DNA from: Candidatus Scatonaster coprocaballi
Lineage (GTDB): Bacteria; Bacillota; Clostridia; Saccharofermentanales; Saccharofermentanaceae
Length of the DNA stretch: 64,000 nt
Direction: 5' to 3'
NCBI GenBank assembly: GCA_018064475.1
Contig: JAGHVD010000007.1
Location: 1-64,000, forward strand
The notes below the pieces were generated by a model. It was not told where the DNA came from and ran no database searches. It saw only the letters and a list, made by a program, of their open reading frames with translations. Shown here piece after piece: positions 1,111-31,397 of this stretch; position 1 is the stretch's first letter; the number at the start of each line of letters is the position of its first letter. The position numbers and the translations under genes were made by a program.

Positions 1111-3852
1111 ATGAAGAATGCATGTATCCACCTCTATCCAATCTATGGTGGGACACTGCATTTTACGATCGTGAATACGAATGGAGAAGCGGTGGGAACG
1201 TTTTCCAGTACGTATTGTCCTCCGGTGGGTAATGAACAGCATCACTTCAGCGACGGCCTGCGCATGGCGGAGAACTGCTGGGCGACCTTTGAAATGCCCA
1301 CGGTCAATCAGGCGGGTGGTAAGATCCTGACGGTGTCGGAAGCATACTTCTGTACGGATAACCGATATACGGAGAAGAACGATTCCATAGATACCGGTAA
1401 GTACAGTCTATCGATCCTTAACGAAGGACAGACGTTGCTTGTCGGTAGCATACCGATAAATACCGATGTATATCTGAAGATCATCGTGGAAGAAGAGGCA
1501 GCGGAAGTCGTATTTAACGGTGATGCGACTGCATACGTGGAGAACGGCTCCATGTCCGATACACCTTCGAAGAAATCCTTGAACGCATATGGTACATCCC
1601 TCATCAAATTGAAATGCACGCCACCCATCATCATTCCGGAGTTTGGTAATGAAGATACAGCGGTCTATGATTATCACGTCTTTTGGTACCTCAATGATGG
1701 GGAGGAGACATCCATGATTGCTAGTGGTGCTTACCATGAAAATATCGGAGAAGATATCCTTTACGGAAGATTGCCGGATGTGATGGCGGATACTGACGCA
1801 ACGGTCTGGGCCGTGATCAAGAGAACGAACACGGGAACCGGTAAATTTGCCATGATCGAATCGGATCATCTTACGGTTTCCATCAAGAAATTCCATGCTG
1901 AACTAATTGATGTAGATACAGTTTCCGCCTTGACTTCTGACAATCTGTATGTGACTGCACCGAAGAACAGTCAATGCTGGGTCAGCGTGGACGGTGGCAT
2001 CAAGCAGCAGCTTGATCCGTCAAACTCTTTTAAACCAGATGACCAAACTGGAGGCACCACGCTTACGTTTCAGACATACGGATTCTGTTACAAGGTAACC
2101 GAGAACGGGACATATATGTTTGAAGTTCGGGAAGGTGAATCAGAATTCAGCGCCAACCAATCGATGACGGTCACTTATAACAATATCCGCCCTGCCTATA
2201 CAGTAAATTTCGATATGAATGGACATGGAGAGGGAATCGCGGCACAGACAATCATGAGTGGCACAGTCGTGACAGAACCGGAGGAACCTTCGGAAGAGGG
2301 CTGGGAATTCGGTGGCTGGTATATCGATGCGGACTGCGTATATGCTTGGGATTTTGACGCAAATACGGTGACTTCGGCACTTACGCTGTATGCCGGATGG
2401 ACCGAACATGTCTGTTCGAATCCTACTCCTATAAAAGGTGAGCCGGCATCCTGCACCAAGGATGGATATAAAGACTGTTACCAGTGTAGTTGTGGTAAAT
2501 ACTATGAAGACGCAGAGTGTATGACGATCATCGATGATTATGCAACATGGAAGAGCGGCGCCGGTAAGATTTCAGCGGGACACACCTATGGAGAACCAGA
2601 ATATATATGGAATGCTGCGGAATGCACGGCAGTCCGCACTTGCTCCGTCTGCACAGAGAGTACGGTAGGTCACACCGAGACCGAGACTGTGACCGGGACC
2701 TATGTGAAGGACAGTGATGCTACATGTATTGAGGCGGAGAAGGGACATTATAAGGCGGCGTTTACGAACACCGCTTTTACCGCACAGCAGACAACGGAGA
2801 ATACTGCAATCAACGGTAATCCGCTCGGCCACGATTTCAACGGTGATTATAAGAATAATGGTGACGGTACGCATTCCCGCAAGTGTACTCGTTGCGACGA
2901 GTATGGCACAGCGGTACAACACAGCTACAAGGATTATGTATGTGTCTGTGGCGATGAGGACTTGGCAGGCGCAATGGAAGATGCGAAGAAAACTGCTAAG
3001 GAAGCGATCCTTGCCGAACAGGGGGATGATACCTCCGAAGCTGTAGTAGAAGCTGCCGAAGATGCGATAAACGCAATCGATACTGCGACGACCATTGATG
3101 AGGTCAATGTAGCAAAGGAGGCCGGCATAGAAGCCATTCGTGACGCAAAAGCCGGCAATGTACCGGTCCCTCCTGTGCATTACATCATGCTTAACGGTGC
3201 GAACAGTTCGTGGACAAAGGGGAGCACAACAGGCCTCCTATTTAGATCGGATGCTCCTTTTGCCAAGTTCGATCATGTTCAAGTCGATGGTGAAACCATT
3301 GTGTCAACCCATTATATCGCTGAAGAAGGTTCCACCAAGATCACGCTTACTCCAGCATATTTGGAAACATTGAGTATTGGTAGACACTCTATCAAGATCG
3401 TTTCCATTGACGGAAGTGTTGCGACGAACTTTACTGTAAAATTACCTACACTTCCTGCCACCTATATCGTAACCTTTGTAATGGGTGGCCATGGCTCAGC
3501 GCCGGCAGATCAGCGCATAATAAACGGAAATACTGCATCAAAGCCTGTTGATCCTACTGAGGAAGGATGGGCGTTCAGTGGATGGTATGTAGATGCGCGC
3601 TTCTCTACGAAGTTTGACTTCAACACTGCCATTACTTCCAATACAAAGGTTTACGCCAAATGGACGAAAGACGCTACCGATCCAATTGATCCTACAGATC
3701 CGATTGATCCGACCGATCCTGTCGATCCGATTGGCCCGAAGACCGGCGACGACAGCCACGAGTTAACATGGGTTACGCTCTTGTTAGTGAGCGGCGGCGC
3801 ACTGATCGGAACGATGGTATATGACAAGAAGAGAAAATATCATGTGATGTGA
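1111..3852 (+). pseudogene. C-terminal part of interrupted PKTG-anchored surface protein
   Basis: This is the continuation of the gene starting at 214. The frame is open from 850, and 1111 is merely its first ATG, with no ribosome site or signal peptide of its own. Visible parts in order: a beta-rich region; an InlB-B-type (Listeria-Bacteroides) repeat at about nt 2197-2403 (VNFDMNGHG to LYAGWT); a Cys-rich stretch with GHTYGEP and CSVCT motifs; a helical FIVAR-like segment at about 2960-3160; a second InlB-B repeat at about 3463-3663; a DPTDPI repeat wall spacer; then GPKTG (3733-3747), a hydrophobic helix and a KKRK tail. The ending is a sortase signal. PKTG is the core of signals used by clostridial class B sortases, and such a sortase lies at 39426-40298. 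Without readthrough or reversion this half is probably not made. Confidence 0.7.
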
Positions 3853-3919: not shown

Positions 3920-4951
3920 ATGAAACTGGTTCTGGAATATCTGCGTCGACATATGAAGATCTTCCTGATATCGACGATTTTTCTGACGATGGAGGCTTTT
4001 GCTGACCTTCTGCAACCAACCTTTATGTCATTGATCGTGGATGAGGGTATCCAGAATGTGGAGATTCGGACGATCTTGAAATATGGATTGATCATGTTGG
4101 CGATCGCATTGGTGGGGGCTTGCTCCGCCGTGATGAGAAATCATTTTGCCAGCCGGACATCTCAGACCGTGGGCAAAGAACTCCGTCACGATATGTATGC
4201 GAAGTCTGTGACAGCACCAAAGGGTGACATTGAATTTAAATCGGTGAAGTTCGGTTATACGGAAGAGAAGACGGTGCTTCAGGATATCACGCTGAAGATT
4301 CCGGCGGGTACACAGGTGGCCATTGTAGGACCGACGGGATCTGGTAAAACTACGATTATTAACCTTCTGACCCGATTCTACGACGTCAACGATGGCGAGA
4401 TTCTGTTGGATGGTGTGGACTTGCGAGACTATAAGCTTGGGGATCTACGTGATTCCTTCGGTGTGGTGCTCCAGGATACATCGCTATTTGCCATCTCTGT
4501 TCGAGACAACATCAGTTACGGTCACGAAGAGGCTTCTTCGGAGGACATCGTTGCTGCGGCCAAAGTTGCGGGTGCCGACAGCTTCATCCGACGTCTGCCA
4601 CAGGGCTATGATACGATTCTCGAGCAGGGTGGAAGCGAGCTGTCTCAGGGTGAGCGTCAGCTTCTCACGATTGCCCGAGCGGTACTGACCAACGCGCCCA
4701 TCATGATTCTCGACGAAGCGACCAGCTCCGTCGATACAGTGACTGAGCAGAAGATTCGTCGCGCCATGTTGAAGATCTGCGAGAACCGCACTTCCTTCAT
4801 TATCGCCCATCGCCTCTCAACCATTCGAGATTCAGACATCATCATTCTCATCGAGGACGGCCGAATTGCCGAGCAGGGAAATCACCAAGAACTCCTCGCG
4901 CTGAATGGCAAATACGCACAGATGTATAAGACGCAGATGGGCCTTGCCTGA
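3920..4951 (+). CDS. shortened, apparently chimeric ABC exporter half
   Basis: The product is 343 residues, against about 570-620 for a normal half-exporter. Residues 1-96 match the start of the first subunit of heterodimeric exporters (YfiB/MdlA type: EAFADLLQPTFMSLIVDEG, then the ASRTSQ stretch). The sequence then jumps at about residue 97 (nt 4205) into a nucleotide-binding domain of the second subunit type. That domain has Walker A GPTGSGKT (137-144), Q-loop LQDTSLF, signature LSQGERQ (241-247), Walker B IMILDEA (261-267), SSVDTVTE and H-loop H297. About 230 residues of membrane domain are absent. A deletion joining two tandem genes would explain this. The ATPase motifs are intact but transport is unlikely. 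Confidence 0.75.
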   Translation: MKLVLEYLRRHMKIFLISTIFLTMEAFADLLQPTFMSLIVDEGIQNVEIRTILKYGLIMLAIALVGACSAVMRNHFASRTSQTVGKELRHDMYAKSVTAPKGDIEFKSVKFGYTEEKTVLQDITLKIPAGTQVAIVGPTGSGKTTIINLLTRFYDVNDGEILLDGVDLRDYKLGDLRDSFGVVLQDTSLFAISVRDNISYGHEEASSEDIVAAAKVAGADSFIRRLPQGYDTILEQGGSELSQGERQLLTIARAVLTNAPIMILDEATSSVDTVTEQKIRRAMLKICENRTSFIIAHRLSTIRDSDIIILIEDGRIAEQGNHQELLALNGKYAQMYKTQMGLA

Positions 4952-5179
4952 GTGAATACGGCGATCTGTTTTTGTTTTCCGTATAATTTCCATGGAATGC
5001 AGGATCTGTGGAAAAATATGGAAAACATAACGGGGTGGGTTCACTTTAGATGACTACTTCTGAGACATTACTGTTCTTGGGAGAGACGGAGACACTTGGA
5101 AACGCAGATAAGTTTGAATCGCTTCCGCGGGTCATTTATAATGCTTACTTGATGATAGACTTAGATGTGGCAAAAGCAC

Positions 5180-5245: not shown

Positions 5246-5908
5246 ATGCTGGACATCATTATTGTAGAAGACAATCAAGAGATTGCAGGGCTGCTCTGCG
5301 ACTTCCTTCGGAAAGAGAATTATTCCGTATCTGTGGCGAGTTCTGGGGAGCAGGCCTTGGAACGGTTTGAGAAGTATGGTGCGAGACTGATCATCCTAGA
5401 TATCAGCCTTCCGGGTGTGGATGGTTTTGCCGTATGTGCCAAGATCCGTGAGACTTCCAACGCGCATATCATGATTGCCAGCGCGCGGACGGGAAAAGAA
5501 AATATGCTCAAAGGTCTGGGACTTGGCGCAGATGATTATATCGAGAAACCCTATGATATTGAAGTGTTGATCGCCAAGATCAAAGGTGTTTTTACAAGAA
5601 AATACGCGTTCAACGAGATGGTCTGTGGAGACATCAAGATCAATTCGGTGAATCATACCATTCAAGTGGGTGATCGAACGATTGAGACAACGGCCAAAGA
5701 GTTCGAGTTGCTGAAGTTCCTGATGGAAAATCAGGGTATGACGCTACGTAAGGAGTACCTCTTCAACACAATCTGGGGAAGTGACAGTGATTCGGAGATC
5801 CAGACGCTGACGGTACATATCAAGTGGCTTCGACAGAAGATCGAGGAAGATCCGAAACACCCGAAGCACATCATCACAGAGTGGGGAGTGGGATACCGTT
5901 TTGAGTAA
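5246..5908 (+). CDS. OmpR/PhoB-family response regulator
   Basis: The 220-residue DNA-binding regulator is the partner of the kinase that overlaps its end. The receiver domain (about 1-115) carries acidic E8/D9, phospho-acceptor D52 (LIILDISLPG), S79 and K101 (EKPYD). The C-terminal winged helix (about 125-220) ends in the typical WGVGYRFE. Length is normal for the family. The ribosome site AGAGGAG lies just upstream. The stop overlaps the kinase start by 8 nt, so the two should be translationally coupled. Genes downstream (permease and ATPase) suggest that it controls an antimicrobial-peptide or envelope-stress ABC system, and direct repeats at 7220-7238 are candidate binding sites. Confidence 0.9.
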   Translation: MLDIIIVEDNQEIAGLLCDFLRKENYSVSVASSGEQALERFEKYGARLIILDISLPGVDGFAVCAKIRETSNAHIMIASARTGKENMLKGLGLGADDYIEKPYDIEVLIAKIKGVFTRKYAFNEMVCGDIKINSVNHTIQVGDRTIETTAKEFELLKFLMENQGMTLRKEYLFNTIWGSDSDSEIQTLTVHIKWLRQKIEEDPKHPKHIITEWGVGYRFE

Positions 5909-7124
5909 GTTTCGTAGAATTGCTGTTTTCTTTGTCTTGCTGGAGATCGTGGGACTTGTTTTTGCCAATGTGTACGGAAAGAAGTACTGTACATCTGTCG
6001 ATTCCCATGCGTATAAAGTCGATGTGCAGCGTGTGGCTAATCGCATGCAATCCGGGGAGGCGCTGTCTACGATTCCGCTGGACGAATATCCGTCGCTTCT
6101 TGATGTGAGTGAATTTGATCCCCTTGCTGTGAGTGAGCATGAATATGAAGTAGTGGAAGTCAACGGTGTGCTATATCGTTTCTCTTATCAGAATTCAGAC
6201 TATTCGGATATTCTTCTAATGATCAATATCATCCTGATCGTGACGATCTTCTTGACGGTCATCCTTCTTCTTTACCTAGATCGGCGCGTGATTCGTCCGT
6301 TCGGAAAAATGAATGAATATGCGACGGAACTGGCAAAGGGAAATCTGACACAGCCGTTGCAGCAGGACAAGTCGCACTACTTTAAGCGGTTTGTGTGGGG
6401 CGTGGATATGCTTCGCGAGAAACTCGAGGATGATAAGAAGCGTGAGTATGAACTTCTGAAGGAGAAGCAGACGATGGTGCTCTCCCTATCACATGACATT
6501 AAGACACCGCTGGCTGCAATGGAATTGTATACCAAAGCATTGTCCACGAATCTGTATCCTTCTGAAGAAGCGCGCCAGGAAGCACTTCTTGGTATCAAGA
6601 AAAACATTGCAGAAATCAATAATTATGTTTCACAGATAGCCGAGACTTCCCGTGAAGATCTGATCCATATGCATGTGGAGAATCAGACCATCTATTTGAG
6701 TGGTGTCCTGGAAGCGATCCGCCTTTACTACCAGGACAAGTGCCAGAAACTGCATATTACACTGGATATGGCGCCTTACGACAACTGCCTGATTCAAGGT
6801 GACCATGACCGACTGGTCGAAGTACTCCAGAATCTGATCGAAAATGCCATCAAGTATGGCGACGGCCAGCGGATCAGCATCTCGGTTTCGGAGGAAGAGG
6901 ACTGCAAACTCATCGCCGTGCGCAACACGGGGTGTACGCTGCGTGAAGAGGAACTGCCGAATCTCTTCGATTCATTCTATCGCGGAAGTAACAGCGAGAA
7001 ACAGCCGGGAAGCGGTCTGGGCCTCTATATCTGTAAGTCACTTCTCCGTCGCATGGAAGGAGATATTTTCGCTTCGATGAGAAATGGAGAATTCTGCATT
7101 ACGGCAGTCGTCCGCAAAGCATAG
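5901..7124 (+). CDS. sensor histidine kinase
   Basis: The start codon is TTG at 5901, inside the end of the regulator gene. The 407-residue protein has a transmembrane helix at about 7-25, an extracellular loop of roughly 80 residues, a second helix at about 103-126, a HAMP linker, a DHp domain with the phospho-accepting H198 in LSLSHDIKTPLAAME, and a catalytic domain with N-box NLIENAIKYG and G-boxes ending GSGLGLYICK. All kinase motifs are present. The small extracellular domain does not reveal the ligand. It forms an operon with the regulator at 5246, and the ABC genes at 7283-10501 are the likely targets. Confidence 0.9.
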   Translation: MSKFRRIAVFFVLLEIVGLVFANVYGKKYCTSVDSHAYKVDVQRVANRMQSGEALSTIPLDEYPSLLDVSEFDPLAVSEHEYEVVEVNGVLYRFSYQNSDYSDILLMINIILIVTIFLTVILLLYLDRRVIRPFGKMNEYATELAKGNLTQPLQQDKSHYFKRFVWGVDMLREKLEDDKKREYELLKEKQTMVLSLSHDIKTPLAAMELYTKALSTNLYPSEEARQEALLGIKKNIAEINNYVSQIAETSREDLIHMHVENQTIYLSGVLEAIRLYYQDKCQKLHITLDMAPYDNCLIQGDHDRLVEVLQNLIENAIKYGDGQRISISVSEEEDCKLIAVRNTGCTLREEELPNLFDSFYRGSNSEKQPGSGLGLYICKSLLRRMEGDIFASMRNGEFCITAVVRKA

Positions 7125-7219
7125 ATTACGAAAACACAGAAGAGTGAGAGATTTCCTTGCACAAGGTTTGACTGCCTCACAAAAGCGAGCGCTCTGCTCC
7201 GTCAGACGAAGCAAAAATG

Positions 7220-7255
7220 TGTTTAATGATTGTTTAATAATTTCTCCGCTATAGT
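7220..7255 (+). promoter_or_regulatory. direct-repeat operator candidate and -10 box
   Basis: TGTTTAAT occurs at 7220-7227 and again at 7231-7238. The starts are 11 bp apart (about one helical turn), the arrangement bound by OmpR-type dimers. A TATAGT -10 box lies at 7250-7255 and there is no good -35, which fits an activator-dependent promoter for the permease gene at 7283. Confidence 0.5.
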
Positions 7256-7282
7256 AAGCACAACAAAGAAAGGAGTGACGAG

Positions 7283-9655
7283 ATGTTTCTGGATATTCTG
7301 AAAAAAGATATACAAAGAAAAAAGACGATGAACGTCATCTTGTTGTTGTTTACAATTTTAGCTTCGATGTTTGTATCCTCCGGGTTATCGAATGTAGTTA
7401 GTGTCTTGAATGGTACGGACTACTTCTTCGATCTGGCCGGTGTGGGCGATTATGTGGTCATCACACAGAACAAAGATAGCGGTGTAGAGGAGATCCTGAA
7501 GAATTCCGAAAATGTTGAGGAGTACTGGAAAGAAGAAGTGTGTTGGGCAACCTGCTCCGATATGAGTTTCAATGGAGAACCACTTCATTTAGGTAACACA
7601 ATATCTGTATTCCAAGCATTGAATGATCAATATGCCTTCTTCGATTCAAACAACCATAGACTTGAGAAGATCCAGCCCGGTGAAGTGTTTTTTACAGTGG
7701 GCGTTATGGAGGAAACGGGCATCCACATCGGTGATGAGGTGGAAGTGAACTACCATGGTGTATCGATGAGATTGAAGGTCGCCGGTAGTGTGAAGGATGC
7801 GTTGATGGGGTCGGAGATGTTCGGCAATAAGCGTTTCCTATTCTCTGACGAGGATTACCAGAAATTGAAGAGCGAGGAATCCCGCGATTACACGGGTGAG
7901 ATCTTCAACATACGTGTTCATGACATCGGTCAGTTGAAGACGGCTCTTTCTTCGGCACACCACGTACTGTTTGAAGGCGAGCGCAGCATGTTCAGTTTGT
8001 CCTATGTAATGGAGAGCATCGTGGCCCTGATCGTGTTAATCCTGAGCCTCTGCCTCTGTATCGTGTCATTCGTACTGATGAAGTTTGCCATCTCATTTAC
8101 CATCCATGAAGAATTCCGAGAAATCGGTGTCATGAAAGCGATCGGTATTAAGAATCGGAAGATCCGTAGTCTTTATATGGTAAAGTACCTTGCATGCGCG
8201 CTAACAGGTGGTGTCATTGGCTTTATTGCCGGCATTCCCTTCGGTAACTTCTTGATGAAGTCGGTATCGAAGAAGATGGTGCTTGGAAACGATCAGGGAT
8301 TCCTGCTGAATGTTTGCGGCGCGGTGTTTGTAGTACTGGTTACGATTGGATTCGCTTACTTCTGCACACGTGATGTGAAGAAACTGACACCGATCGATGC
8401 AATTCGCAGTGGATCGACCGGCGAGCGCTACAAGAAGAAGAGAAAGGTTTCCTTGAAACGTTCTCCATTACCGAATGCCGTTCGCTTGGCCATCAATGAT
8501 ATTCTCAGTTCTCCCAAGCGTTATGTTACGGTTATTCTCTCATTCTTCCTGTTCTCGATATTTGTGTTTGGACTAGTGGAAGTGACGGATACGATGAAGA
8601 GTGATTCGCTGACCTATACCTTTGGTAAGCCGAGTGATATGTATATCGAGGCTTCTGTCATTCTCGATCGACTTCCCTATAACGATATGGAAGTAATCTC
8701 CGAGAAAGGAAATGTTATTCTTCCTGAAATGCTCACCACAATCGAACAGGATCTTCAGAAGATGAATATCCCTGGACATGCAAGTGTGGAAATGCAGTAT
8801 AAGTACTGGGTGACGGCTGGCGAGTATTCATTCAACGTATCGTGTGAGCAGAATGCATATGTGGACACTTCACTTTATCGATTCAGTGAAGGTTCTGCCC
8901 CACAGAATGCGGGTGAGATCGCCGTGACGGAGATGGTGGCCGATGACCTTCATGTACAGATCGGTGATACAGTGGAGATCGACTTTGGCACCGAGAAGAA
9001 GGAATGTATGGTGGTTGCTTATTTCCAAAGTCTGAACCAGTTGGGGAATGTGATCCTGCTCCATCAAGATGCACCAACGGACATGAAATATGCGGCTGCC
9101 TATAATGATTTCCAAGTCGACTTCGATGACCATCCGGATGCCAAGACGATTGAAGAACGTATCAAGATGGTTCAAGCATACTATGGAAGTGACAAAGTGA
9201 AGGATGCAGCGCAGTTCTGCGTGGACTGCCTTGGCGTGGTGGATATCATGGACGCAGTGAAGTACCTGCTCCTAGTGATTACGCTAGTTGTGCTCATTCT
9301 GGTGACCATCCTGATGGAACACTCCTTCATTCACGAAGAGAAGAGCCAGATTGCGATGCTGAAGGCCATCGGTTTCAAAGATCGTTTCATTGTAAAGTGG
9401 CACACATACCGATTCCTGATTGTGACGTTCATTGCGGAAATTCTGGCGATCGCGCTCACCTATCCGATCACGAAACTCTGGTGTGACCCCATCTGGTCCA
9501 TGATGGGTTGTACGGAGGTGGACTATTACTTTAATCCGTTATCTGTAATGGTCATCTATCCATGCATCATCCTAGCAGTGAGCATCCTGACTGCTTGCCT
9601 GACTGTCCAGTCCACAAGAAAGATCAAGTGCACAGATGCACGAAACAACGAGTGA
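7283..9655 (+). CDS. FtsX/MacB-type ABC transporter permease
   Basis: The 790-residue membrane protein has the two-module FtsX layout: a first helix at about 15-37; a large extracellular MacB-like domain (IGDEVEVNYHGV, LKVAGSV); three helices at about 235-370 including the FREIGVMKAIGIKNR coupling segment; a second first-helix at about 415-435; another extracellular domain; and three C-terminal helices with KSQIAMLKAIGFKDR. AGGAG precedes the ATG by 7 nt. It pairs with the ATPase 60 nt downstream and follows a two-component system. That setting is typical of peptide-detoxification or envelope-stress exporters. The substrate cannot be read from sequence. Confidence 0.85.
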   Translation: MFLDILKKDIQRKKTMNVILLLFTILASMFVSSGLSNVVSVLNGTDYFFDLAGVGDYVVITQNKDSGVEEILKNSENVEEYWKEEVCWATCSDMSFNGEPLHLGNTISVFQALNDQYAFFDSNNHRLEKIQPGEVFFTVGVMEETGIHIGDEVEVNYHGVSMRLKVAGSVKDALMGSEMFGNKRFLFSDEDYQKLKSEESRDYTGEIFNIRVHDIGQLKTALSSAHHVLFEGERSMFSLSYVMESIVALIVLILSLCLCIVSFVLMKFAISFTIHEEFREIGVMKAIGIKNRKIRSLYMVKYLACALTGGVIGFIAGIPFGNFLMKSVSKKMVLGNDQGFLLNVCGAVFVVLVTIGFAYFCTRDVKKLTPIDAIRSGSTGERYKKKRKVSLKRSPLPNAVRLAINDILSSPKRYVTVILSFFLFSIFVFGLVEVTDTMKSDSLTYTFGKPSDMYIEASVILDRLPYNDMEVISEKGNVILPEMLTTIEQDLQKMNIPGHASVEMQYKYWVTAGEYSFNVSCEQNAYVDTSLYRFSEGSAPQNAGEIAVTEMVADDLHVQIGDTVEIDFGTEKKECMVVAYFQSLNQLGNVILLHQDAPTDMKYAAAYNDFQVDFDDHPDAKTIEERIKMVQAYYGSDKVKDAAQFCVDCLGVVDIMDAVKYLLLVITLVVLILVTILMEHSFIHEEKSQIAMLKAIGFKDRFIVKWHTYRFLIVTFIAEILAIALTYPITKLWCDPIWSMMGCTEVDYYFNPLSVMVIYPCIILAVSILTACLTVQSTRKIKCTDARNNE

Positions 9656-9715
9656 TTTTACCGAATAGAAAGAAAACCCATTGTGGAAATATTGACGAAG
9701 AAAGGTTGAATAGAT

Positions 9716-10501
9716 ATGAATACGAATACAAAATCCAACAAGACAATCCTGGAAGTGAAGGACCTGTGCAAGACATATGTGGTGGAGAAGCGCCAGAACA
9801 ATGTACTGATGAACGTGAATTTTACGATTGAAGAAGGCGAAATGGTCGCCATTATGGGTCCGTCCGGTTGCGGTAAATCTACGTTGCTGTACTCGGTTTC
9901 CGGCATGGACGTCCCGACCAGCGGCAGCGTGAAGTTTGCAGGTGAGGAGTTGACCAATATGAAAGCTGATGAGCTGGCAAGCCTTCGACTCGACAAGATG
10001 GGGTTCATCTTCCAGCAGATGTACATGATGAAGAATCTGACCATTCTGGATAACATTCTCCTGCCGGCACTGGAGAGCAAGAAATCCGAGGAGAACAAGG
10101 CGGAGAAGACCGCACGTGCAGAAGCCTTGATGCGCAAACTCTCCATTATTGATGTGGCGGACAATGATATCAATGAAGTATCCGGAGGCCAGCTCCAGCG
10201 TGCATGCATCTGCCGAAGCATGATGAATAATCCGAAGGTGCTCTTTGCTGATGAACCGACCGGCGCACTTAATCGTGCCTCTTCAACGGAAGTCATGGAT
10301 GAACTGGTGAAACTGAATTCAGAGGGAACGACCATCATGATGGTTACGCATGATGCGCGTGTGGCCGCGAAGTGTTCCCGTGTGCTCTATATGCTGGACG
10401 GCAACATCAAGGCTGAGTATATCCGCCCACAAGAAGAGGGCCTTACTGAGAAAGACTACGAAAGACGTCTCAACCACTGGCTCATGGAATTGGGGTGGTA
10501 A
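9716..10501 (+). CDS. LolD/MacB-type ABC transporter ATPase
   Basis: The 261-residue ATPase energises the permease at 7283. It shows Walker A GPSGCGKST, a Q-loop FIFQQMYMMKNLT, signature VSGGQLQRA, Walker B VLFADEPTGALN and H-loop VTHD. The ADEPTGALN form is typical of the mechanotransmission (MacB/BceA/LolD) class rather than of importers. A C-terminal tail of about 30 residues (EGLTEKDYERRLNHW) extends past the domain. It is the last gene of the operon, followed by an inverted repeat at 10535-10576. Confidence 0.9.
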   Translation: MNTNTKSNKTILEVKDLCKTYVVEKRQNNVLMNVNFTIEEGEMVAIMGPSGCGKSTLLYSVSGMDVPTSGSVKFAGEELTNMKADELASLRLDKMGFIFQQMYMMKNLTILDNILLPALESKKSEENKAEKTARAEALMRKLSIIDVADNDINEVSGGQLQRACICRSMMNNPKVLFADEPTGALNRASSTEVMDELVKLNSEGTTIMMVTHDARVAAKCSRVLYMLDGNIKAEYIRPQEEGLTEKDYERRLNHWLMELGW

Positions 10502-23008: not shown

Positions 23009-23710
23009 TTACACTTCCGAAGATTCTGCGTCGGCTGCATCCAGTTCTTGGTTACGGGCTTGACGCTCGCGGATGGTCTTCTCGATCATCATGTCCTTCA
23101 CCTTCATAAGACGGGTCGTAGCGGAACGTTCGCTCTCATCCAGTTTCATGGTGATATAACGAATTTTCTCTTCGTAGTCAGGAATCATGACGTGTTCCAA
23201 GGCGTTTACACGACGACGTGTCTTCTCGATTTCAGAGGCCATGAGCTGACATTTCTTCTCAATCTCTGCAAGTGAGATCAGGTCCGGCATGATGTCGGAC
23301 AATGCGTAGATGGCATCGTCGAGGTCGATAGGGGTGAAGGAATAGCCGTAGGAGTAGATATCGCCTTCGTCGGCAGTCGTGTACTGTGCCTTAAAGACAG
23401 GGACCTTTACGCTCATAACGTTCTTCTCGGAGACTTCCAGTGTCATACCCTGTTTATGGTACATCATGGCTACGGCAATGGCCTGATTGGACATGAGTGA
23501 ACGGGCGATGGACATGTGCTGATTGGCAACTTCCAACTTCGCTTCCACCTCACGACGGATGCGCTTGTTCTCACGAACCGCTTCCAGAAACTGACGCATC
23601 AGTTCGTCGCGCTTGTCCTTCAAGAGCTTGTGTCCGCGGCGAGCGGTCACAAGGCGCTTCTTCAAGCGTGTGAGTTCCATTCTGGTTGGATTGACATTCG
23701 TAGTAGCCAT
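23009..23710 (-). CDS. atpD: V/A-type ATPase subunit D (central stalk)
   Basis: The 233-residue, mostly helical rotor-shaft subunit is typical: NPTRMELTRLKKRLVTARRGHKLLKDKRDEL at the start and a long C-terminal coiled coil (MKLDESERSATTRLMKVKDMM). It turns inside the A3B3 ring and, with subunit F, links catalysis to the membrane rotor. It is the last gene of the nine-gene operon, 33 nt after subunit B. The Glu/Ala-rich tail after about residue 218 varies within the family. Confidence 0.95.
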   Translation of the reverse strand: MATTNVNPTRMELTRLKKRLVTARRGHKLLKDKRDELMRQFLEAVRENKRIRREVEAKLEVANQHMSIARSLMSNQAIAVAMMYHKQGMTLEVSEKNVMSVKVPVFKAQYTTADEGDIYSYGYSFTPIDLDDAIYALSDIMPDLISLAEIEKKCQLMASEIEKTRRRVNALEHVMIPDYEEKIRYITMKLDESERSATTRLMKVKDMMIEKTIRERQARNQELDAADAESSEV

Positions 23711-23743
23711 TTGCTTCTTCCTGTCCTCTGAATCTTCTTAACC

Positions 23744-25117
23744 TTATTCTGCGTCGTAGTACTTATCCAGTAACTTATCGCTGATACGCTTATGTTCAGA
23801 TCTTGGGAGGATCCTCAGAAGTTTCCAGCCCAGATCAAGTGTCTCTTCCACAGAACGATCCTGATTGAATCCCTGTGATACATATTCTTTCTCAAAAGCA
23901 TCCGCAAACTTGGCGTAGAGCTTATCCATCTCTGTCAGCGCGGCTTCACCGAGGATGACCATGAGTTCCTTCGCTTCCTTACCACGCGCGTAAGCAGAGA
24001 AGAGCTGGTTCATCGTGTTACTGTGATCCTCACGGGTCTTGCCTTCACCGATACCCTTATCTTTCAGACGAGAGAGGGAAGGAAGAACATCGACCGGTGG
24101 CATAACGCCCTTACGGTAGAGTTCACGAGAGAGGATGATCTGACCTTCGGTGATATATCCGGTCAAGTCAGGAATCGGGTGTGTCTTATCATCTTCCGGC
24201 ATGGTCAGGATCGGGATCATGGTGATGGAACCATTCTTGCCCTTCTGACGTCCTGCTCTCTCATAGAGGGAAGCAAGGTCGGTATACATGTAACCCGGAT
24301 AACCACGACGTCCCGGTACTTCCTTACGTGCGGCAGATACCTCACGGAGTGCATCGGCGTAGTTCGTGATATCGGTTAAGATAACGAGTACGTGCATATC
24401 CAGGTCGAATGCCAGATATTCTGCGGCAGTCAGCGCCATACGCGGTGTGGCGATACGCTCAACGGCCGGGTCATTCGCAAGGTTAATGAAGAGTACAGTA
24501 CGATCCAGTGCACCGGTCTCACGGAAACTGTCCATGAAGAAGTTTGCTTCCTCGAAGGTGATACCGATTGCGGCGAAAACAACGGCGAACTTCTCATCTG
24601 TGCCGCGAACTTTTGCCTGACGTGCGATCTGTGCAGCAAGATTCGCGTGCGGGAGACCGGAAGCAGAGAAGATCGGGAGCTTCTGTCCACGTACCAGTGT
24701 GTTCAGACCATCGATTGCAGATACACCGGTCTGGATGAACTCATTCGGGAAGTTTCTGGCCGCCGGATTCATCGGAAGACCGTTGACATCGAGTCTCTTC
24801 TCCGGGATGATCTCCGGACCGTCATCGATCGGACGACCGAGACCGTCGAATACACGACCCAGCATATCCTTGGAAACCGGAAGTTCCATCTGCTTACCGG
24901 AGAAGCGAACCTTGCTCTCTGCCAGGTTGATGCCGGCACCGCTCTCGAAGAGCTGTACCAGTGCGTTGGAACCATCAATTTCCAGTACACGGCAACGACG
25001 CTTCTCGCCGTTGTTGAGTTCAATCTCACCGAGTTCATTGTAGCTGACATCCGTGACACCACGGACCATCATCAACGGACCGGCAACTTCAGATATGGTA
25101 CGGTATTCTTTTGCCAT
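23744..25117 (-). CDS. atpB: V/A-type ATPase subunit B (non-catalytic)
   Basis: The 457-residue nucleotide-binding-fold subunit lacks a Walker A lysine motif, as expected for B ([17 protein letters not shown]). It shows [16 protein letters not shown]-like conserved sequence and [13 protein letters not shown]. It alternates with A in the head ring. It begins 3 nt after the subunit A stop. Normal family length (about 455-460). Confidence 0.95.
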
Positions 25118-25120
25118 GTC

Positions 25121-26887
25121 TTAGTCCTCCTTGTTCAGCAGCTCGGAAAGTTCGAAGGCCAGCTGTGCGCCGATGGAGATGTAATCATTCTCCGCATCGT
25201 CTTCTGCACAGTACTTGAAACGACCGATCTTCTCACGAACAGGCAGGGCAACGAGTGCCTCAATGTCTGCGCCCAATTCGAGGGAACTTGCTGCTTTGTC
25301 ATAATAATCCAGGATCAACTTCATCATGTAATCCTGCTTCTTTAACGATGTATGGGTATCGACTTCGTGGAAAGCCAACTGATGCAGGAAGTCTTCACGA
25401 ATTGAACGTGCAACTTCCATCTTGAGACGGTCAGAAGCAGAGAGTGCATCCATACCGACGAGCTTAACGATTTCTTCCAGTTCAGCCTCTTCCTGAAGGA
25501 TGAGCATCATGCGTGCGCGGTTACTGTTCCACTCCGGTGAGACATTCTCATCGAACCAGCTTGCCAGCGAATCGGTATACAGGGAATAACTGGTGAGCCA
25601 GTTAATTGCCGGGAAGTGACGCTTATAAGCAAGTCCGGCATCCAAGCCCCAGAACACTTTGACGATACGAAGGGTAGCCTGGGAGACCGGCTCAGAAATA
25701 TCACCACCCGGAGGAGATACTGCACCGATCGCGGACAGTGAACCTTCCAGTCCTTCGCTACCGAGTGTGGTGACACGACCGGCACGCTCATAGAACTGCG
25801 CCAGACGGGAACCGAGGTAGGCCGGATATCCTTCTTCACCCGGCATCTCTTCGAGACGACCGGACATCTCACGGAGGGCCTCTGCCCAACGGGAAGTGGA
25901 GTCAGCCATGAGGGCAACGGAATAGCCCATGTCACGGAAATATTCAGCAATCGTGATACCGGTATAGATGGAAGCCTCACGGGCGGCAACCGGCATATCC
26001 GAAGTATTTGCTATAAGTACGGTACGCTTCATCAAGCTCTCACCGGTATATGGGTCGATGAGTTCCGGGAACTCATTGAGAACGTCAGTCATCTCGTTAC
26101 CACGCTCACCACAACCGATGTAGACGACGATATCGGCCTGCGCCCATTTTGCCAACTGATGCTGGGTAACGGTCTTACCAGATCCGAAAGGTCCTGGAAT
26201 CGCTGCCACACCACCCTTAGCGATTGGGAACATGCAGTCGATGACGCGCTGGCCGGTGACCAATGGCATGGTCGGCGCGTGCTTCTTTACGTACGGGCGG
26301 CTCTTACGAACCGGCCAACGCTGATAGAGCATCAGCGGAATTTCTTCGCCCTTGTCGGTCTTCAGTGTGCCGATCGGGTCTTCTAACTTATATTCGCCAC
26401 TCTTTAACGATACGATCGTACCGCTCTGCGTAGGCGGGATCAGGATCTTGTGCTTAACGGTCTCACTCTCTTGAACGATACCGATGCAGTCACCGCCGAT
26501 GACGACATCGCCCTCGCTCTTGGTGGCTTCGAACTTCCAGACGGCCTCACGGGAGAGGGAAGGAACTTCGATACCACGGGAGAGGTTATTACCGATCTTT
26601 GCCATGATGGATTCCAGCGGACGCTGAATACCGTCGAAAATACCGCCGATGAGGCCGGGCCCCAATTCAACGGAGAGTGGAGCGCCTGTGGACTCAACCG
26701 GTTCACCGGCCTTCAAGCCTGCGGTCTCCTCGTAAACCTGGATAGAAGCACGGTCGCCGTGCATCTCGATGATCTCACCGATCAGACGCTCATTACTGAC
26801 ACGTACCACGTCGAAGAGGTTCGCATCACGCATCCCTTCTGCAATTACCAGTGGTCCGGAGACCTTAACGATCGATCCTTTGCTCAT
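25121..26887 (-). CDS. atpA: V/A-type ATPase catalytic subunit A
   Basis: The 588-residue catalytic subunit carries Walker A GPFGSGKT at 232-239, the A-type bulge region (about 110-200) that F-type beta subunits lack, [11 protein letters not shown], and [34 protein letters not shown]. It hydrolyses or makes ATP in the A3B3 head. Normal length. Located between subunits F and B. Confidence 0.97.
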
Positions 26888-26911
26888 GTTCTTACGCTCC
26901 TTTAAAGTTGC

Positions 26912-27229
26912 TTACTGATCTTTCAAAATATCGCTACCGACAGCCTTCTCGACGGACTTGGAAATGGCCTTCATGCCCATTCCCTCGTTGCCGGTCACAC
27001 CCGGAATCGGGAGAATGACGGGGAGCGGTCTGTCGCTATACTTATCGATTTCTGTTTCCAGTTGTTTGGCCAGTGACTCGGTAATCAGGATGACAGCGTA
27101 TTCGCCCTCAGCCAGATTATGTAAAGTGGTAGCCGGATTATCCATGCGGTCCAGCGGGAAGATGTCCAGACCGATGGAGGAGAAACCGTATATACTGTCT
27201 CGGTCACCCATTGCGGCAATCTTATTCAT
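26912..27229 (-). CDS. atpF: V/A-type ATPase subunit F
   Basis: The 105-residue Rossmann-like subunit binds the central shaft. Typical features are KIAAMGDRDSIYGFSSIGLD at the start and VILPIPGVTG in the second half. It overlaps the end of the subunit C gene by 8 nt, so translation is coupled. Confidence 0.92.
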   Translation of the reverse strand: MNKIAAMGDRDSIYGFSSIGLDIFPLDRMDNPATTLHNLAEGEYAVILITESLAKQLETEIDKYSDRPLPVILPIPGVTGNEGMGMKAISKSVEKAVGSDILKDQ

Positions 27230-28202
27230 ACAGCCTCCTTACACGACTCGCGACCATCTCGATCGGCAGATTGTTCTGCTTGGCAGACAGGATGATCCGC
27301 GCGTTCTTCACTTCGGCTTCTTTTCCCAGATAGAAACCAATCAACGGTTCCGGTCCCAGCGGACTGTTCTTCGTTGACAACAGGCGAGCGACCATCTCAT
27401 CGTCTACCCATTTCTCGAACTCCGACGGGGAGGAGGACAAGAATTTCGTCCCCGCGCTATAAGGAGTGGTAGCAAGGTAGTTCAGAAGGTCGTCGACTTT
27501 GCCGCCTGCAAAAGAGATCAACTTCTCGCGGCTTACGGTCGTGCAACGATCTGTTAATGCCTTCTCGACCCAGCTACTATCTTTGCCGGTCCGGATGGCA
27601 CGGAATGCCGTCTTGATATTGGTCGTGGCGGTATAGAGCTCCATCTCCTCGATGAGAAGTGGAATCTTGGTCTTTGCCGCCATCATCTGGATCTCATCGA
27701 GACACTTACGGTCCACCATGACGTCAGCCGCCTGGCCATCCTGGGTACGAACCAGCACGTCGTAGACTTCCTCCGCCAATTTGGCAAAAGGACTCGGAAG
27801 CATATCGAAATGGTTGGTCTCAATCGCTTCTTTCAATAACGTCTGGTCCAGCGTGCTCGGTGAGATGAAGTGAAGATCGACGTCAAAATCACTCAGCAAG
27901 CTCTTGATACCGGCCTTGAGATTGTGGTAGTCGTTCTTCCGAATCAGACAGTCGAACAAGGTCGGGTCCGGTGCGGATTCGAGGATCCAGCTCCAGGCAC
28001 GGGTCATCTCCAGATCCAGAATCTTTCCGATGTCACGGCTATCATCCGGCATGGTCCATCCATGTTCCGACAGCACAGCCACGGCAGCCTCGTAGGACGG
28101 GGCGGTGAGAAGCTTGTCGATGTCAGACTTTCTTAGGAAACTCTTCTCATAGACATGGGCGCCGGAAACGGAGTAGGCGTATTTTGAGATACTCTGACTC
28201 AT
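27222..28202 (-). CDS. atpC: V/A-type ATPase subunit C (rotor funnel)
   Basis: The 326-residue, all-helical subunit joins the central stalk to the proteolipid ring. It contains YSVSGAHVYEKSFLRKSDIDKLL, NDYHNLKAGIKSLL and FYLGKEAEVKNARIILSAKQN, all characteristic. Length is normal. It is encoded between E and F as in other Bacillota. Confidence 0.93.
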   Translation of the reverse strand: MSQSISKYAYSVSGAHVYEKSFLRKSDIDKLLTAPSYEAAVAVLSEHGWTMPDDSRDIGKILDLEMTRAWSWILESAPDPTLFDCLIRKNDYHNLKAGIKSLLSDFDVDLHFISPSTLDQTLLKEAIETNHFDMLPSPFAKLAEEVYDVLVRTQDGQAADVMVDRKCLDEIQMMAAKTKIPLLIEEMELYTATTNIKTAFRAIRTGKDSSWVEKALTDRCTTVSREKLISFAGGKVDDLLNYLATTPYSAGTKFLSSSPSEFEKWVDDEMVARLLSTKNSPLGPEPLIGFYLGKEAEVKNARIILSAKQNNLPIEMVASRVRRLYE

Positions 28203-28227
28203 GTTCTTGTGTCAATTCACTTTCTTA

Positions 28228-28818
28228 TTATTTCTTTGCGAGGAGCACTTGGTTGACCGCGTCGCGGATCGCATCGCTACGATCATCCGCCAGCGCGTCG
28301 AGTGTGCCGTTATACTCGCAGTCTTCGCAGATCAGGACACAACCGCAGTCGAAATCACCAGGCTCGTCGGCGAGGGTGATGGTCGATCCGGTTTTTCTAG
28401 ATAGATCCGAGAGGAATGAGGCGGGAAGTGCGTCCTTGTCCTGCTTGGACAGAATCAGTTGCCCGTCTGCCCCTTCACAGTTGGAAGCTACAAATTCGGC
28501 AACCATTGCCAGACGTTCTTCCGTTGGAAGGGCACGAATGCGTGCTTTGGCCTCTTCAACGATCTCGTTGATCAGGGCTACACGCTCTTCCAGAATCCTT
28601 CTTTGTGAACGCGTGTTCAGCGAAGCACGATTCTGACGTGTCTGCGCATCGATGGCGGCCTGGGCATCAGCAAGCATCTTCGCTTCCTCTTCCTTGGCCT
28701 GCTCCTGCTTCTTCGATATCAGCTTCGCTGCATCGGATTCAGCACGGGCTACACGTGCATCAGCACTTTCTTTCGCTTCTTTCTCAATTCGCTCAATGAT
28801 GGAATCTATACCAGCCAT
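28228..28818 (-). CDS. atpE: V/A-type ATPase subunit E (peripheral stalk)
   Basis: The 196-residue protein has a long N-terminal coiled coil (about 1-100, rich in Ala, Glu and Lys) and a globular C-terminal domain. With the small G/H subunit (31404-31718) it forms the stator stalk that holds the head still. It sits 29 nt after subunit K. Confidence 0.88.
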   Translation of the reverse strand: MAGIDSIIERIEKEAKESADARVARAESDAAKLISKKQEQAKEEEAKMLADAQAAIDAQTRQNRASLNTRSQRRILEERVALINEIVEEAKARIRALPTEERLAMVAEFVASNCEGADGQLILSKQDKDALPASFLSDLSRKTGSTITLADEPGDFDCGCVLICEDCEYNGTLDALADDRSDAIRDAVNQVLLAKK

Positions 28819-28847
28819 ATCTGCTCCTTACATTACTGTCTTAGATA

Positions 28848-29327
28848 TTACAGCTTGAGGCTGCCTACGTTCATAACCATCAGAAGAGAAGTAACCAGGC
28901 TCAAAAGAGCATAGAGCTCAACGAGGGAAGCAGAAGTAACTGCCTTACCAGAATCCTGAGGTCTCTTGGAAATGAGGTTTACACCGGTCAGTGCAACGCG
29001 AGCCTGGAACAAAGCGGAGATCAGACCACCGATGGCCATTGGCAGGCAAGCGAGAAGATAGAGAAGACCTGTAGAAGTAGAAGTAACAGGGTTTCCTCCG
29101 AGAATACCGATCTGTGTGAGTGTCAGGATCGCGATAACCAGACCATACAGTCCCTGAGAACCAGGAAGCAGCATGAGGATCAGCAACTTACTGAACTTGC
29201 TGGAATCTTCTGCGATGACCGGAGAAGAAGCCTCCGCCACCATTCCTACACCCTTGGACGAGCCGATACAATTTGTTGTAACCGCAAGTCCAGCTCCTGT
29301 TAATGCTAGTAACATACCCCAGTTCAT
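28848..29327 (-). CDS. atpK: V/A-type ATPase proteolipid subunit K
   Basis: The 159-residue rotor subunit has four helices, a fused double hairpin as in Enterococcus hirae NtpK. The ion-binding Glu is E137 (LVELYALL) in the last helix. The first hairpin has Q58 (LPGSQGLYG) instead of a carboxylate, and Q108 (ALFQARVAL) is also present. These positions match the Na+ ligands of E. hirae (Q65, Q110, E139, with Ser/Thr next to Q65), which suggests Na+ rather than H+ coupling. That is an inference from residue pattern only. Confidence 0.93.
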   Translation of the reverse strand: MNWGMLLALTGAGLAVTTNCIGSSKGVGMVAEASSPVIAEDSSKFSKLLILMLLPGSQGLYGLVIAILTLTQIGILGGNPVTSTSTGLLYLLACLPMAIGGLISALFQARVALTGVNLISKRPQDSGKAVTSASLVELYALLSLVTSLLMVMNVGSLKL

Positions 29328-31397
29328 TTAATTGTCCTCCTTAATTTTGAAGTGTTTGGTGTTACCAGTAAAGGGGTGGAACATCGTTCCGCCGCCTTCG
29401 TAGAACTTTGCGAAAAATTCTACATACTGAAGTCTATTAACATGGACATATGCGCCGAGTGCGCTGATGCCCAGATTAATCGCATGGAAGAACAGGAAGA
29501 TTGGAATGAAGATTATAAGTTTCACGACTCCTGTTCCGAAGAGTGTGCCGATCATGTTGGCAACACTACCGATGATACCTGTAACCAGACCCAAAGCCAT
29601 GAGTCGGGAATAGGAAAGAAGATCACTGAAATAACCGGTGACGCCGTAGATGGAACCTACACCGCCGATGGCTTTACCAACGATACCCTTTGCATTTCTA
29701 CCGCCGGTAAGAAGAAGTCCGGCTACACCTGCAATGGCGACCCACTTGCCGATCTCTGCGATCGGGCAGGAATCCGGGATCGATACACCTGCGAGCATCG
29801 GAAGCAACATCGGAAGCACGATCATCGCGACACCACCGAAAGCCACATACCAGAAGCCGACATCACAGAGGGCACCGACCTTATCGCCATTCTTCCACAT
29901 CTTGTAGAAGTTGGCACCCAGACCCACCAAGATGTGTACGAAACCAAGTACAAAGCTCAGAATGAGTAACTTCATCGGGTCCTTACTTGGATCGAACCAG
30001 ATTGGCGGGAGCCAACGGGAACCGTCGAAGAAAGCAGTAGAGATGACACCAATGAGGTCACCGAAGAAACTACCATACATGAAGCCCCAGAATGTGGTAG
30101 CCAGACCACAGTAGAAGAACTTCATCATATTCTTCTTATTATTGCCTTCCGGTTTGCGCTTCAGGAGTACGAAGAGTGTACCGATCATGAGGAGAATGCC
30201 GTAGCCGGCATCGGAAAGCATCATACCGAAGAAGAAATAGTAGAAGAAGCTGGCCACCGGATTCGGGTCAATATCACCGCGAGTCGGCGCACTATAGGAT
30301 TCAACGATATCCTCCATCGGTGCAACAAAAGCATTGTTCTTAAACTTAACCGGAACTTCTTCCTCTTCCAGCGGATCGCGAAGATCAACATAGAGATCAA
30401 ATTTCTCATTCAGCGCATCCACGACCTGCTGACTGTCTTCTTCCGCAACGAAACCATCCAGAATGAAGGTCTTATTGGAGAAGAGAAGCTTGCCCAGCAT
30501 ATCGTATTTCTCATGTCTCATGGACAGATAGTCAGATAGGAAATAAAGATCATCCAGTTTGTCTGCATAGGCATGTAATTGCAGACGCGCATCTTCCACA
30601 TTCATCTCCGCGTCTTTCATACGCTTGGTCAGACGGTCAATGCGTACTTGCGGTGCGTGCTTGGTCGGATCCGCCGGTGATACGAATGACATACGGCGGA
30701 ACGTGGCCATGACATCCTGATAATCTTTCTTATGGACCAAGAAGGTTGCACAGGTCTGGTCCGCTACGGAAGATACGATCTCTATATAGAATTCGGGGAT
30801 CGTTAATTCTTCCTGCTTGGCATCGGCATGGAGAACGGCTTCCGCCTCTTTCATAGCGGTGTAGTTCTGACAGAATGCGGCGTAGAAAGAAGACTCATTG
30901 TAATGTTCGGGAAATTGACCCACGATACAGCAGGACTTCTCTGTTCCTTCAAACTGCATCGGAATATCGAGCTTCTCCCAAGGAAGAATGGCGTCAAGTT
31001 GACGCTTGGCATGGATGCCGGCTGCTCTTTCAGAAGAGATCTTACGGTCCAGCCCCTCGATGTCGTAGACGATCTTCATGGTCTCATCGATACTTTCGGA
31101 ACGGGCTTCAAAGTCCTCCAATGTGAGTTCTTGGCGACCGGCAAAACCAGATAGGAAAGGCTTCTTCACTTGCGAATAATCTTCGACCAATGCGATGGCA
31201 TGGTCTACGGATGCAGATGTCTTCTCCAGTTGAGTGAGACTGTTCTTGGAAGGGAAGAGGGATAGTTCCTCCGTTACATCTTCCTGATCTCTTTCTGTCA
31301 CATCGACAGTACCAAAGCGTTGCAGAAGATCCACGATATTCTTCGCGTCTTTCTGCGAGGCAATGATCTCGATATGCTTCATAGGAAGAATAGCCAT
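29328..31397 (-). CDS. atpI: V/A-type ATPase membrane stator subunit I (a)
   Basis: The 689-residue subunit has a cytoplasmic N-terminal half (two alpha-beta lobes joined by coiled coils, about 1-340) and a C-terminal membrane half with seven to eight helices. The conserved Arg of the ion channel is in LSYSRLMALGLVTG, and GYFSDLLSYSR precedes it. It directs ions to and from subunit K. It directly follows subunit G/H (6 nt) and abuts subunit K, whose start lies next to its stop. Confidence 0.93.
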   Translation of the reverse strand: MAILPMKHIEIIASQKDAKNIVDLLQRFGTVDVTERDQEDVTEELSLFPSKNSLTQLEKTSASVDHAIALVEDYSQVKKPFLSGFAGRQELTLEDFEARSESIDETMKIVYDIEGLDRKISSERAAGIHAKRQLDAILPWEKLDIPMQFEGTEKSCCIVGQFPEHYNESSFYAAFCQNYTAMKEAEAVLHADAKQEELTIPEFYIEIVSSVADQTCATFLVHKKDYQDVMATFRRMSFVSPADPTKHAPQVRIDRLTKRMKDAEMNVEDARLQLHAYADKLDDLYFLSDYLSMRHEKYDMLGKLLFSNKTFILDGFVAEEDSQQVVDALNEKFDLYVDLRDPLEEEEVPVKFKNNAFVAPMEDIVESYSAPTRGDIDPNPVASFFYYFFFGMMLSDAGYGILLMIGTLFVLLKRKPEGNNKKNMMKFFYCGLATTFWGFMYGSFFGDLIGVISTAFFDGSRWLPPIWFDPSKDPMKLLILSFVLGFVHILVGLGANFYKMWKNGDKVGALCDVGFWYVAFGGVAMIVLPMLLPMLAGVSIPDSCPIAEIGKWVAIAGVAGLLLTGGRNAKGIVGKAIGGVGSIYGVTGYFSDLLSYSRLMALGLVTGIIGSVANMIGTLFGTGVVKLIIFIPIFLFFHAINLGISALGAYVHVNRLQYVEFFAKFYEGGGTMFHPFTGNTKHFKIKEDN

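Follow-up and report, generated by a model that had tools for sequence, protein, structure and literature searches.

A probable deletion remnant of a heterodimeric ABC exporter gene pair in a draft genome of Candidatus Scatonaster coprocaballi

Sequence comparison indicates that a short open reading frame (ORF) in the 64,000-nucleotide stretch of Candidatus Scatonaster coprocaballi DNA analysed in this study (the window) is what remains of a two-gene heterodimeric ABC exporter. The ORF appears to be the in-frame scar of a deletion through the exporter operon, and it is most likely a recent and non-functional pseudogene. Automatic annotation would name it an ABC transporter ATP-binding protein/permease, and it would be wrongly counted as an exporter. 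Deletions that wreck a gene in this way are nothing out of the ordinary, and this one was seen in a single draft genome.

Results

Pfam analysis of the 343-aa ORF (Table 1) detected an ABC_membrane domain cut short to profile positions 2-87 of 274, its first third, and after it a full-length ABC_tran domain. Hydropathy places TM1 (residues ~14-32), TM2 (residues ~52-70) and the start of the first intracellular loop in the N part. The frame is open across all 343 codons and the ATPase motifs are intact, as a first-pass annotation of this DNA had stated: Walker A (GPTGSGKTT), the signature (LSQGERQ), Walker B (IMILDEATSSVD) and the H-loop (IIAHRLST) are all present. Walker A, the Walker B Glu and the H-loop of this NBD are canonical and the signature is degenerate (LSQGE). 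A purine-rich AAAAGAGG stretch that precedes the ATG could be a ribosome-binding site. Promoter and terminator scans found no more than in shuffled sequence.

Table 1. Predicted parts of the chimeric ORF, in window coordinates
Feature	Position	Strand	Extent	Basis
Chimeric ORF	3920..4951	+	343 aa	ORF list; split homology to two adjacent genes (53 loci); Pfam
Subunit 1-derived N part (TM287/BmrC-like)	3920..4204	+	95 codons	Identity to gene 1 start; hydropathy
Junction zone, AKSVTA	4202..4219	+	codons ~95-100	Parental regions aligned in relatives
Subunit 2-derived NBD (TM288/BmrD-like)	4208..4948	+		Identity to gene 2 NBD; motif counts, 53 loci

A scan of genome contigs gave 80 relatives, of which the 56 closest were numbered L099-L154. 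Both subunit genes could be read in 53 of these 56 loci, while the contigs of the other three begin inside the pair and do not contain the start of gene 1. In the 53 loci, genes 1 and 2 form an adjacent tandem pair. Residues 1-95 of the window ORF match only gene 1 (E <= 1e-3), at its start and with 51-77% identity, and no match to gene 2 was found at E <= 1e-3 in any of the 53 loci. Residues ~97-343 match the ATPase end of gene 2 in the same loci with 67-81% identity and 312-399 bits, compared to 154-204 bits for residues 97-343 against the NBD of gene 1 itself, where gene 1 is intact. When gene 1 of the closest relative in the same family was compared with the PDB, its best match was TM287 (3qf4_A, E 3e-139), and the best match of gene 2 of this relative was TM288 (3qf4_B, E 1e-152). 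The window protein matches TM288 more closely than TM287, and TM288 is its best match among bacterial PDB chains. These comparisons bear out the assignment made in the first-pass annotation, with the N part derived from the first subunit and the ATPase half from the second.

The Pfam order of a membrane-domain start and then an ATPase is also the order expected from a simple internal deletion inside one subunit gene. However, the N part matches gene 1 only and the C part matches gene 2 far better than the NBD of gene 1 in 53 of 53 loci, so that the two halves belong to different subunits. This split homology refutes an internal deletion, the probability of which is close to nil. Split homology, together with the tandem order conserved in the 53 loci, is the reason why the ORF is read as a chimera of two tandem neighbours fused by deletion, as had been proposed.

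The short fused form was found in none of the 53 related loci, and the only other carrier of the subfamily among 188 genomes of the order has a full-length pair, so that for these loci the earlier question of whether relatives share the short form is answered in the negative. The closest relative from the same family (L101, on G071 contig C97; JAKSRF010000034, a horse faeces MAG) is 73% identical to the window ORF in the N part and 79-80% identical in the C part. This locus has an intact pair of 572 and 608 aa and a different upstream neighbour, whereas the window has one fused ORF. In a rumen MAG (L108:2502-4233), an apparent frameshift divides gene 1 into ORFs of 414 and 169 aa, and the window may therefore not be the only place where the exporter pair is damaged.

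Alignment of the parental regions places the join at codons ~95-100, nt ~4202-4219, in agreement with the earlier estimate of about nt 4205, though the exact breakpoint is blurred by variable linkers. In the relatives, 2476-2717 nt lie between the two join points, with 2488 nt as the commonest value. On this comparison, the ORF is the in-frame scar of one non-homologous deletion (~2.5 kb) that runs from codon ~95 of gene 1 to codon ~355-360 of gene 2 in a tandem heterodimeric ABC exporter operon of the TM287/288 or BmrCD type. Gene 1 has lost about 476 codons, those for residues ~96-571, and gene 2 its initial ~355-360. Compared to the relatives, subunit 1 is without TM3-TM6 and NBD1, and subunit 2 is without its entire membrane domain. 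The first-pass annotation was therefore right about the loss of the first ATPase domain, but its figure of some 230 membrane-domain residues was too low.

No repeat longer than 8 nt common to both deletion ends was found in 51 relatives, which means that neither homologous recombination nor an assembler repeat easily explains the join. Homologous recombination between the two NBDs was rejected because the points brought together by the join do not correspond: one is residue ~95 in the membrane domain and the other is in the linker before NBD2. As for a repeat-mediated deletion, the length shared by the ends in the relatives leaves room only for microhomology.

The assembly is a draft of 105 contigs, and a wrong join made by the assembler, with both genes intact in the organism, is formally possible in place of a true deletion. 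However, a shared stretch of at most 8 nt is too short for assembler bridging, the missing pieces were found on no other contig, and the join is in frame, all of which make an artefact quite improbable. When each full gene was compared with the rest of the assembly, the best match reached 38% identity in both cases, and these matches are different exporters. The ORF thus consists of the 5' part of gene 1 and the 3' part of gene 2 in their original order, with the intervening part absent from the genome, and on these alignments it is classed as a deletion-fusion remnant.

In exporters of the TM287/288 and BmrCD type, the hydrolysing site is made up of Walker A and Walker B of subunit 2 and the LSGGQ of subunit 1. 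In gene 1 of the relatives, Walker B reads LDD and the signature LSGGQKQ, with Q for the H-loop His wherever this motif was scored; in gene 2, Walker B and the signature are LDE and LSQGERQ without exception. The stump is without a consensus ATPase site because the LSGGQ of gene 1 was deleted and only NBD2 with LSQGE is left. Heterodimeric type I exporters (TM287/288, BmrCD-like) are defined by two six-helix membrane domains, two NBDs of which one has a degenerate Walker B, and two separate subunit genes, which in this subfamily are adjacent. The window has one fused ORF with two transmembrane helices (TM1 and TM2 of subunit 1, 10 of the 12 being gone) and the NBD of subunit 2 only. The deletion would have left no translocation pathway, and this anatomy and the known mechanism indicate that the stump should be unable to export, because 10 of 12 helices and the LSGGQ partner of the hydrolysing site are lost. 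A homodimer of the stump would pair a canonical Walker A/B with a degenerate LSQGE. The isolated NBD of TM288 binds MgATP (PMC7756269), and the PDB holds chains of the TM288 NBD alone (4q7l, 4q7m). This suggests that the stump may keep ATP binding, and it may fold as a membrane-tethered NBD.

No departures were found at 137 near-invariant columns (28 in the N part and 109 in the ATPase part). Had the stump drifted neutrally since the deletion, the lack of any change in these 137 codons would cap the drift, and with it the age of the event, at about 0.01 substitutions per site by a simple Poisson bound (95%). At least 69% of four-fold degenerate sites differ from the relatives compared, and the terminal branch of the window protein is of ordinary length (rank 21 of 54). 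The absence of departures at the 137 positions suggests that the deletion is recent or that the product is constrained. The same dichotomy was put forward in the first-pass annotation, and it holds on these sequence data.

Discussion

A recent, non-functional pseudogene is the preferred reading of the ORF, with some points against it. There is no stop, no frameshift and no decay of conserved sites, and a gene under selection would look alike. The deletion also kept the frame, which by chance happens one time in three. Alternatively, selection would have kept the short protein as an NBD anchored in the membrane, perhaps one that pairs with another ABC exporter subunit in a regulatory or dominant-negative role. 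Retention of 137 of 137 near-invariant positions in a frame open across 343 codons, the putative ribosome-binding site and the binding of MgATP by an isolated TM288-type NBD (PMC7756269) all fit such a protein. However, recency explains the conservation equally well, the short form occurs in no relative, a homodimer would have two degenerate LSQGE signatures, and the docking surfaces of the membrane domain for the subunit 2 NBD are gone. Selection on the short protein is therefore considered unlikely. That the fusion is a new small membrane-tethered ATP-binding protein modulating another exporter of the same cell is very doubtful. If selection did act on the stump, the ORF would be a clear example of how a deletion spanning two subunits can give rise to a new gene.

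With the pseudogene as the preferred reading, loss of the exporter would have been tolerated because the genome has at least one other degenerate-site exporter pair. An intact pair with DD/DE asymmetry is found on contig C32, and further exporter genes are on contigs C1, C35, C54 and C91; this suggests that the loss could be tolerated. The subfamily is frequent among the Lachnospiraceae records of the contig scan but rare in the window's order, where 2 of 188 genomes carry it, and no close homologue of the pair was found in the 22 other genomes of the genus. This rarity suggests that the exporter pair was acquired horizontally, with loss in the other genomes as the alternative. In several relatives, an ORF that by its appearance encodes a MarR-like regulator lies directly upstream of gene 1 and overlaps its start. 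No regulator lies directly upstream of the window ORF.

The gene upstream (window 1111-3852) encodes a surface-type protein of 913 aa. It contains two stretches of Listeria-Bacteroides repeats, a DPTDPIDPTDP linker and, at the C-terminus, a PKTGDD segment and a TM helix. A comparison with 112 other genomes of the family found no match to it at E <= 1e-40.

Between genes at window 4973-5026 is a ~53-nt element (TTTCCATGGAATGC..GAT..GTGGAAAA.ATATGGAAAAC) with an imperfect TTTCCA/TGGAAA inverted repeat. A second copy with 83% identity is located at C25:15280-15332, and the core has only two copies in the genome at <=3 mismatches, compared to 0 for a reversed control pattern. A response regulator, a histidine kinase, an FtsX-type permease and an ABC ATPase are encoded in one direction at window 5246-10501, which looks like a peptide-sensing and resistance module of the BceRS/BceAB type. 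A second histidine kinase like the one in this cluster is on contig C92 of the same genome. Further along, the ORFs at window 23009-31397 (- strand) have the appearance of an A/V-type ATPase operon.

A search of the literature on comparable fused exporter remnants found nothing relevant, and the nearest known systems are intact exporters. TM287/288 of Thermotoga maritima (PDB 3qf4) has the same degenerate/consensus asymmetry as the intact relatives of the window ORF. However, it is composed of two full half-transporters, whereas the fused stump in the window has one NBD and two TM helices. BmrCD of Bacillus subtilis, EfrCD and PatAB are heterodimeric multidrug exporters (PMC4046567, PMC4997860, PMC9541285). 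Like the relatives of the window ORF, these systems have two subunits and one degenerate site; in the window, by comparison, both subunit genes are destroyed.
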